This document shows positions 59,904-61,530 of a stretch of 64,000 bases of DNA, piece by piece. Below the pieces are notes generated by a model. That model saw nothing but the letters and a program-made list of their open reading frames with translations, was not told the origin of the DNA and searched no databases. The translations under genes were made by a program, and so were the position numbers. Location of the stretch: NCBI RefSeq assembly GCF_029222965.1, contig NZ_JARHUD010000006.1:1-64000 (forward strand), given 5' to 3'. Every line of letters begins with the position of its first letter. The stretch's first letter is position 1. Source of the stretch: Aquibaculum arenosum (GTDB taxonomy: Bacteria; Pseudomonadota; Alphaproteobacteria; Kiloniellales; DSM-21159).

Positions 59904-60770
59904 TTGTCCAAACTCTACGCCATCAGCGACCTGCACGCCGCCATCGAGAGCAACCGCAACGCGGTGGAGGAGCTGGGCGAACATCCTAATGACTGGTTGA
60001 TCGTTGCCGGCGACGTCGCCGAGCGGCCGGACTCCCTGTGGGATGTGCTGGAAGCGCTCTGCGCGCGCTTTGCCAAGGTGATCTGGACCCCGGGCAACCA
60101 TGAGCTCTGGACCCTGCGCGACGACCAGGGAAGCGTTGCCGGCGAAGCCAAGTACGAGCTGATGGTGGAAACAGCGCGCGCCGCCGGTGCCATCACCCCG
60201 GAAGATGCCTTTCCGCGCTGGACCGGCCCCGGGGGCGAGTGTGTGATTGCGCCGCTCTTCCTTCTGTATGACTACAGCTTCCGGCCCTCGGAGGTCGCCC
60301 TGGAGGGGGTGGTGGACTGGGCTGCCGAAGAGCGTTCTGTCTGTTCCGATGAAGTGCTGCTTTCGCCGGACCCGCACCCCTCGCGCCAAGCCTGGTGTGC
60401 GGATCGCATCAACCGCACGGCCGGGCGGCTCGAGCGGGAAGTGCCGGCGCACCTGCCGACCATCCTGGTGAACCACTATCCGCTGCGCCAGGAGTTCGTC
60501 TATCTGCCGCGCATCCCGCGCTTCGCCCCCTGGTGCGGCACCCGGGCCACCGAGACCTGGCACCGCCGCTATCGCGCGCTCGCCTGTATCAGCGGGCATC
60601 TGCACATCCGCCGCACCGACTGGCGCGACGGTACGCGCTTCGAGGAGGTCTCGCTGGGCTATCCCAAGCAGTGGCGGCAGAGCCAGGGCCTCAAGCCCTA
60701 TCTGCGGGAGATCCTGCCCGGCCCACCGCCACCGGCCGAGGAACCCGGCACGATCTTTCACGGGCGCTGA
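59904..60770 (+). CDS. metallophosphoesterase similar to phosphopantetheinyl hydrolase PptH
   Basis: A 288-residue calcineurin-type phosphoesterase. Metal ligands are D9 and H11 (SDLH), D37 (GDV), N65/H66 (GNHE), His in VNHYP and GHLH. The segments DDWLIVAGDVAER-like (here NDWLIVAGDVAER), FAKVIWTPGNHELWT, FLLYDYSF, WCGTRAT and RFEEVSLGYP match what I remember of mycobacterial PptH (Rv2795c), which removes 4'-phosphopantetheine from carrier proteins. Next to it, convergent, is an Sfp-type transferase. A TTG start follows GAGGTGAGG. Substrate is inferred. Confidence 0.82.
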   Translation: MSKLYAISDLHAAIESNRNAVEELGEHPNDWLIVAGDVAERPDSLWDVLEALCARFAKVIWTPGNHELWTLRDDQGSVAGEAKYELMVETARAAGAITPEDAFPRWTGPGGECVIAPLFLLYDYSFRPSEVALEGVVDWAAEERSVCSDEVLLSPDPHPSRQAWCADRINRTAGRLEREVPAHLPTILVNHYPLRQEFVYLPRIPRFAPWCGTRATETWHRRYRALACISGHLHIRRTDWRDGTRFEEVSLGYPKQWRQSQGLKPYLREILPGPPPPAEEPGTIFHGR

Positions 60771-60813
60771 AACCCCCAGGGGCTGAAACCCCCAGCCGCT
60801 GAAACCCTCAGCG
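60766..60813. repeat. three tandem 16-bp repeats bridging two convergent stop codons
   Basis: Units start at 60766, 60782 and 60798, each beginning GCTGAAACCC and then CCAG or TCAG. The first unit contains the plus-strand hydrolase stop, the third contains the minus-strand transferase stop, and the units can form small CTG/CAG hairpins. It fills the whole 37-base intergenic space. Confidence 0.8.
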
Positions 60814-61530
60814 GTCCGGCAGGTCTTGCAGCAGGCGCCAGCGCAAGGAAGGCGGTCCGGCCGGCTCCCGCTGACTCACCGCGACGATGAAGCCTTCGGG
60901 CAACTGGCGCTGCTCGAAATGCCAGGTGCTAGGGTCGTCATCCACCGCGGGCGTGAAGGTGAGCCGGAAGGGATCGAGGTCGAAGGCGAAGGAATCCAGC
61001 GGCATGCGTAGGCCGATACCGCTGCCCTTGAGGTAGGCCTCCTTCAGGGTCCAGATCCGAAAAAAGCGGTCCCAGCGCTCGCTCTCAACCGGATGCTCGA
61101 GCTGGGCCACTTCACTGGGCGCGAAGAGCCTGCGTCCGACCTCGGCCGCCGTGCGCCGGTCCCGGCTTTCCACATCGACCCCGATGGCCGGGCGGCGCCC
61201 CACCAGGCAGGCGACGCAGCCCCGGGTGTGGGAAATGTTGAAGTAGAGCCGATCCGCCTGCCCGGGCTGCAATTCCGGCTTACCGCCGGGGCCGGGGCGA
61301 AAGCGCCAGTCGCGCGGATCACGCGGCGCGGCAGCGCTGAGCAAGAGACGCAGCAGGCCGTGGGCAAAGCGATAGTCCCGGCGGTCGCGCTCGAAGGCAA
61401 AGCGTGCGGCGCGTGCCTGCTCCTCGGCGCTCAGCAGGCCGGCCATGGCCATTTCGCGGTCGAACGCAAGCCTGCCGGTGGGCAGCACCCAGACCTCCGC
61501 CTCCACGTCTTCCAGCACCGCTCCTTGCAT
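60808..61530 (-). CDS. 4'-phosphopantetheinyl transferase, Sfp family
   Basis: A protein of about 240 residues that transfers phosphopantetheine from CoA to a Ser of acyl or peptidyl carrier proteins. Motifs: GKPELQPG, LYFNISHTRGCVACLVG, the Mg-binding IGVDVES and the WTLKEAYLKGSGIGL block. ATG at 61530 is favoured because GGCGAGG lies upstream; ATG at 61551 is possible. No polyketide or peptide synthase is in the window, so the target may be elsewhere. Confidence 0.9.
   Translation of the reverse strand: MQGAVLEDVEAEVWVLPTGRLAFDREMAMAGLLSAEEQARAARFAFERDRRDYRFAHGLLRLLLSAAAPRDPRDWRFRPGPGGKPELQPGQADRLYFNISHTRGCVACLVGRRPAIGVDVESRDRRTAAEVGRRLFAPSEVAQLEHPVESERWDRFFRIWTLKEAYLKGSGIGLRMPLDSFAFDLDPFRLTFTPAVDDDPSTWHFEQRQLPEGFIVAVSQREPAGPPSLRWRLLQDLPDR

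Follow-up and report, generated by a model that had tools for sequence, protein, structure and literature searches.

A predicted PptH-type hydrolase gene converges on the sole phosphopantetheinyl transferase gene of an AcpS-less alphaproteobacterium

The hydrolase PptH has been published without a known purpose. A gene of this type lies beside a 4'-phosphopantetheinyl transferase (PPTase) gene in the window, by which we mean the whole 64,000-nucleotide stretch of Aquibaculum arenosum DNA that was analysed. The question raised by this locus is why a cell should keep an opponent beside its only carrier-charging enzyme. The first-pass annotation had described a PptH-like protein, convergent with a PPTase and with 37 bases between the stop codons, and this arrangement is confirmed (Table 1). 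The span that it assigned to the pair, 59904–61530, begins correctly but ends too early, as the PPTase gene reaches 61551. We consider it highly probable that PptH opposes a lone Sfp-type PPTase in a genome from which acpS was deleted, with the resetting of carriers as a tentatively favoured role.

Table 1. Features of the convergent gene pair in the window
Feature	Position	Strand	Basis
PptH-type 4'-phosphopantetheinyl hydrolase (metallophosphoesterase)	59904..60770	+	ORF, 288 aa, similarity to 6unc
Sfp-type 4'-phosphopantetheinyl transferase, 247 aa	60808..61551	-	PF01648 + PF22624, Sfp 1qr0 match
Gap between convergent stop codons, 37 bp	60771..60807	.	sequence
Hairpin across PPTase stop codon	60795..60815	.	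sequence + RNA fold
Three tandem 16-bp repeats (xxGCTGAAACCCyCAG) across both stop codons	60764..60811	.	read from sequence

The hydrolase ORF starts with a TTG codon, which is preceded by GAGGTGAGG. It contains all the segments, non-catalytic ones included, on which the likeness to PptH had been based (NDWLIVAGDVAER, FAKVIWTPGNHELWT, WCGT, and RFEEVSLGYP). A phmmer search of PDB sequences matched the protein to 6unc over residues 4–275 with an E-value of 5e-82, and no second PDB sequence matched at E below 0.3. The same structure, labelled as M. tuberculosis PptH, was the top Foldseek result (E 3e-31). The AlphaFold model of the hydrolase (pLDDT 86.7) can be superimposed onto 6unc with a Z-score of 35.3 over 273 aligned residues, and the runner-up structure reached 16.0 (VIA). 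Alignment to M. tuberculosis PptH (Rv2795c) extends over the full length, with 49.6% identity in 270 aligned residues. The metal ligands and C225, H246, and H248 of the M. tuberculosis enzyme are all retained: residues D9, H11, D37, N65, H66, H191, C211, H232, and H234 of the window hydrolase correspond to D22, H24, D51, N79, H80, H205, C225, H246, and H248. In the 6unc chain, the last three are C228, H249, and H251; the numbering was checked against the residues named in PMC8557913, where the exchange H246N or C225R inactivates M. tuberculosis PptH. PF04336 has no match in the hydrolase, which thus does not belong to the HD-type AcpH family, and both the profile searches and the fold searches assign it to PptH rather than to another phosphoesterase family. 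Taken together, the sequence and the predicted model firmly indicate a true PptH-type enzyme.

The partner of the hydrolase is a two-domain protein, which matches PF01648 with 58.6 bits (E 7.6e-16, cut-off 25) and PF22624 with 29.3 bits (cut-off 27). Its N-terminal part is an AASDHPPT_N domain, and its best PDB match is Sfp (E 1.7e-18). The W-x-x-KEA motif of Sfp-type PPTases is present as IWTLKEAYLKG, and the protein has neither the [KR]FAAKEA motif nor the short single-domain build of AcpS. The last of the three repeats makes the hairpin over the PPTase stop codon, which consists of an 8-bp stem with one G-U pair and a 5-nt loop. The RNA fold of positions 60790–60815 has an energy of -12.8 kcal/mol, and the hairpin is a possible bidirectional terminator for the convergent pair. 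An RNA-family search of the window found tRNA alone. The pair is flanked by a FecCD-type ABC transporter operon upstream of the hydrolase and by an aldehyde dehydrogenase on the far side of the PPTase. The GC and GC3 of both genes resemble those of the window and give no sign of a recent horizontal acquisition.

The window PPTase is the only PF01648 protein in its genome, and no AcpS was found there. A survey of 58 genomes of the window's order, for which nearly every PF01648 domain was fetched and read, detected AcpS (with the motif KRFAAKEA or KRFAVKEA) in 52 of the 54 relatives that lack PptH, whereas all four PptH-bearing genomes in the window's family are without it (Fisher p 3.5e-5, uncorrected for shared ancestry). 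The ancestral site has the order pdxJ-acpS-lepB, as in G002. In G006 and G010, lepB directly follows pdxJ and acpS is gone from between them; in G000 and G001, which belong to the window's genus, both pdxJ and acpS are gone before lepB. Accordingly, each of the four family members that carry PptH has lost acpS from this site. Across the 14 alphaproteobacterial PptH genomes checked, an Sfp-type PPTase is always present and AcpS is missing in eight. The loss of AcpS is not required for the presence of PptH, since the other six genomes retain it. The suggested co-occurrence of such hydrolases with PPTases in proteobacteria is thus borne out, and it is strengthened by the sole PPTase and the acpS deletion. 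As a separate observation, the six other family members checked all have pdxJ, which is missing from the window's genus (contigs L199 and L197); this genus may make or obtain vitamin B6 by another route.

PptH has been described as a protein found only in mycobacteria (PMC8557913). This is not correct, because PptH occurs in alphaproteobacteria and in other phyla. Scanning named genomes yielded 133 relatives, of which 80 were retained, mainly from Streptomyces, Actinomadura, and other actinomycetes. The non-actinomycetes among them are one member of Chloroflexota (Thermosporothrix), three of Myxococcota, and a 'Rhodospirillaceae bacterium' of the window's genus. Full-type PptH is encoded by 11 of 385 genomes of the window's class, its own counted, and a sample of 398 genomes of the phylum added two more, both of the same class. 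Together with G001, G006, and G010, the alphaproteobacterial PptH genomes number 16, and PptH is therefore rare but widespread across the class. A fully supported branch of the tree splits actinomycete PptH, including that of M. tuberculosis, from the alphaproteobacterial, myxobacterial, and Chloroflexota proteins. The first-pass annotation was right to place PptH outside mycobacteria, but the window is not an isolated escape from them, as the protein is common in other Actinomycetota and also occurs in Chloroflexota and Myxococcota. A search of the literature accessible without subscription found no paper that describes PptH outside mycobacteria. Weak class-level matches in genus g60 (G092, G245, and G342) were not counted, as they represent a different metallophosphoesterase; the one protein read, from G092, is 35% identical, has 254 residues, and lacks the WCGT motif. 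Its gene (L188, 6042–6806) adjoins asparagine-synthetase-like and ABC-transporter genes in what resembles a lasso-peptide-type cluster.

The linkage of the two genes was examined using a PPTase profile derived from 28 domains and a distance limit of 1.5 kb. Of the 80 PptH loci from named genomes, almost all of them actinomycete, 45 have a PPTase gene within this distance and 35 have none; a second, iterated profile left the count at 45. The PPTase is located directly downstream on the same strand at 43 of the linked loci, whereas the locus from the window's genus is convergent and that of Nonomuraea glycinis is divergent. Three alphaproteobacterial families contain convergent pairs, in a total of seven genomes: G000, G001, G006, G219, G319, G183, and, as a split pair, G010. 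The stop codons are separated by 24 bp in G001, 2 bp in G006, 165 bp in G219, and 3 bp in G319, and the gene ends overlap in G183. In G010, pptH and the PPTase gene finish at two contig ends (L184 and L185), both in matching CTAG stops, and the IS-like ends that follow, GAGCTTGTCCG and GAGCCTGTCCG, resemble each other. We read this as an IS-like insertion at CTAG that has interrupted the same convergent pair, with both ORFs apparently intact. The genes are in tandem in G445 and G818, in opposite orders, and lie on one strand about 3 kb apart in G295 and G384. Pairing of PptH with a PPTase is frequent but not obligatory, because a near PPTase is absent both from the 35 named loci and from five alphaproteobacterial PptH genomes (G191, G258, G353, G461, and G545). 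The gene order around the G445 pair (L239) is ketopantoate reductase (panE/apbA), pptH, PPTase, and type I PKS.

In relatives from several families, PPTase genes recur near pptH, in three orientations. Neither of the two refutations named in the first-pass annotation that computation can check, a different phosphoesterase family or an unconserved neighbourhood, is thus borne out, and its interpretation is supported. The surrounding genes, read in G000, G001, G006, G219, G319, and G445, vary between genera, which indicates that the two genes stay together even as their neighbours are exchanged. An ordinary phosphoesterase that came to lie beside a PPTase gene by accident would agree with the five alphaproteobacterial genomes in which the two genes are apart. 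However, such an explanation is contradicted by the recurrence of the linkage in many families amid unrelated flanking genes and by the low number of PPTases, one to seven per genome, and we regard it as extremely unlikely. The PPTases at the 45 linked loci are for the most part PptT-like, a type seen among the actinomycete partners with the motif FSAKESVYKAW, and that of the window is of the WTLKEAYLK type. Because non-orthologous PPTases adjoin a single hydrolase family, the sequences speak for a functional link between the two activities. G010, G006, G219, and G319 cluster together both in the PptH tree and in the full-length PPTase tree, the PPTase trees being weakly supported.

The link also bears on whether the hydrolase might be a PptH descendant that acts on a small phosphodiester instead of a carrier protein. 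The metallophosphoesterase superfamily is functionally diverse, and about half of the positions differ from M. tuberculosis PptH. Nevertheless, the C225 region and many non-catalytic residues are invariant across a set of 84 sequences, and the association with a PPTase has either persisted or arisen anew with a partner that is not orthologous, the partner subtype differing from that of actinomycetes. A changed substrate is therefore very unlikely. By analogy with M. tuberculosis PptH, the predicted window hydrolase would release phosphopantetheine from holo-carriers, and we likewise infer the carriers that it may serve in vivo.

The carriers with a PF00550 domain in the window's genome are a 79-residue AcpP of the fatty-acid synthase type, a second ACP in a 100-residue frame, a type I PKS frame, and a 914-residue frame with ligase and acyltransferase parts. 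The other AcpS-less PptH genomes contain many very long multi-carrier frames, of up to 8,890 residues. G295 (L235) and G384 (L236) have low GC and are AcpS-less, with 1,518,636 and 1,481,191 bp, respectively, and huge NRPS/PKS frames; pptH and the PPTase gene are both intact in these 1.5-Mb genomes.

We propose that the two-metal PptH would cut the bond between the carrier serine and 4'-phosphopantetheine to give an apo-carrier and phosphopantetheine. Its substrate would be the holo-carrier, and probably also a blocked or misacylated carrier. The convergent Sfp-type PPTase would run the opposite reaction, using CoA. With acpS deleted, the window PPTase alone would have to charge every carrier of the cell: the fatty-acid ACP, the second small ACP, the type I PKS, and the acyl-ligase/ACP fusion. 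Sfp-type PPTases transfer acylated arms. The lone PPTase may thus load acyl or damaged arms, which PptH would remove before the PPTase reloads the carrier.

Such a reset of misloaded carriers is the role that we tentatively favour for PptH. What is known of the reaction, and of the broad range of carriers, comes from M. tuberculosis PptH, which removes an arm with an S-blocking group (biotin-PEG) and accepts E. coli and Pseudomonas ACPs as substrates (PMC8557913). The reset role is favoured because the M. tuberculosis enzyme takes bulky thiol-blocked arms and carriers from several organisms, and because PptH always occurs with an Sfp-type PPTase in the 14 alphaproteobacterial genomes checked, which are often NRPS/PKS-rich. 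In actinomycetes, family 12 ORFs lie near pptH at ten loci (L081 and nine others) and include a type II thioesterase-like protein, identified by eye. The presence of this family near pptH would fit the clearing of misloaded carriers.

The first-pass annotation had suggested that the pair is a reversible switch. In such a switch, the balance of PptH and PPTase would set the holo/apo ratio of carriers as growth state or the supply of CoA varies. The opposed activities are encoded by closely linked genes, and a shifted balance would reach fatty-acid synthesis since the PPTase is unique in its genome. However, most alphaproteobacterial pairs are convergent and are therefore not one transcription unit, no conserved regulatory gene adjoins the pair, and a futile cycle on an essential ACP would carry a high cost. 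Moreover, ppGpp or CoA at 1 mM reduces the activity of M. tuberculosis PptH by at most 50% (PMC8557913). A switch is thus one possible role, which we judge rather unlikely, and the carrier reset fits the distribution of PptH at least as well. Alternatively, PptH may salvage the arm from surplus carriers for CoA synthesis, in agreement with the ketopantoate reductase gene of the CoA pathway beside the G445 pair. This neighbour occurs in one genome only, and a role in CoA salvage was not found in M. tuberculosis (PMC8557913), making recycling distinctly unlikely.

PptH and an Sfp-type PPTase might form a portable set/reset cassette, which displaced AcpS as the sole charging system in several alphaproteobacterial lineages. 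The modification of the essential fatty-acid ACP would then be reversible and edited, and the eraser would make a single promiscuous PPTase tolerable. We offer this wider proposal as a speculation that is possible but doubtful. Alphaproteobacteria with a lone PPTase and without AcpS provide natural contrasts for testing the purpose of PptH. The enzyme could also be a tool for carrier-protein engineering. The only phenotype seen upon the loss of pptH from M. tuberculosis is resistance to a PptT inhibitor (PMC8557913), and PptH therefore bears on drugs directed at PptT.

The kind of enzyme was already known; new are its presence in alphaproteobacteria, its convergent pairing with a transferase other than PptT, and the fact that the paired PPTase has taken the place of AcpS. 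PptH of M. tuberculosis (Rv2795c, 6UNC) resembles the window protein in fold, full-length sequence (50% identity), metal ligands, C225, H246, H248, and a neighbouring PPTase gene. In contrast, the window protein belongs to a separate clade from the actinomycete proteins, and its gene is convergent with that of a Sfp/HetI-like rather than PptT-like partner. M. tuberculosis has both AcpS and PptT (PMC8557913), whereas the window's genome has the partner PPTase only. AcpH of E. coli and Pseudomonas carries out the same net reaction, published for AcpH and expected for the window hydrolase, but the folds are unrelated. PF04336 is absent from all 58 genomes of the order, the window's own and its 57 relatives, and the E. 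coli control was positive. Lone Sfp-type PPTases also serve AcpS-less bacteria, as PcpS in P. aeruginosa and HetI-type enzymes in cyanobacteria. As would have to be the case in the window's genome, a single broad-range PPTase charges the carriers of fatty-acid and secondary metabolism in these systems. We know of no PptH neighbour described for PcpS or HetI-type PPTases, whereas the window PPTase has one. In actinomycete natural-product clusters, metallophosphoesterase genes are listed beside PPTase genes as abmK/abmL (PMC5819245) and I-NTF S/T (PMC8312574), and near NypF (PMC2942817), and carry no PptH label in the gene tables of these papers. Judging from the tables, they probably represent the same pairing, and the gene labelled 'metallophosphoesterase' in several actinomycete antibiotic clusters is probably an unrecognised PptH.
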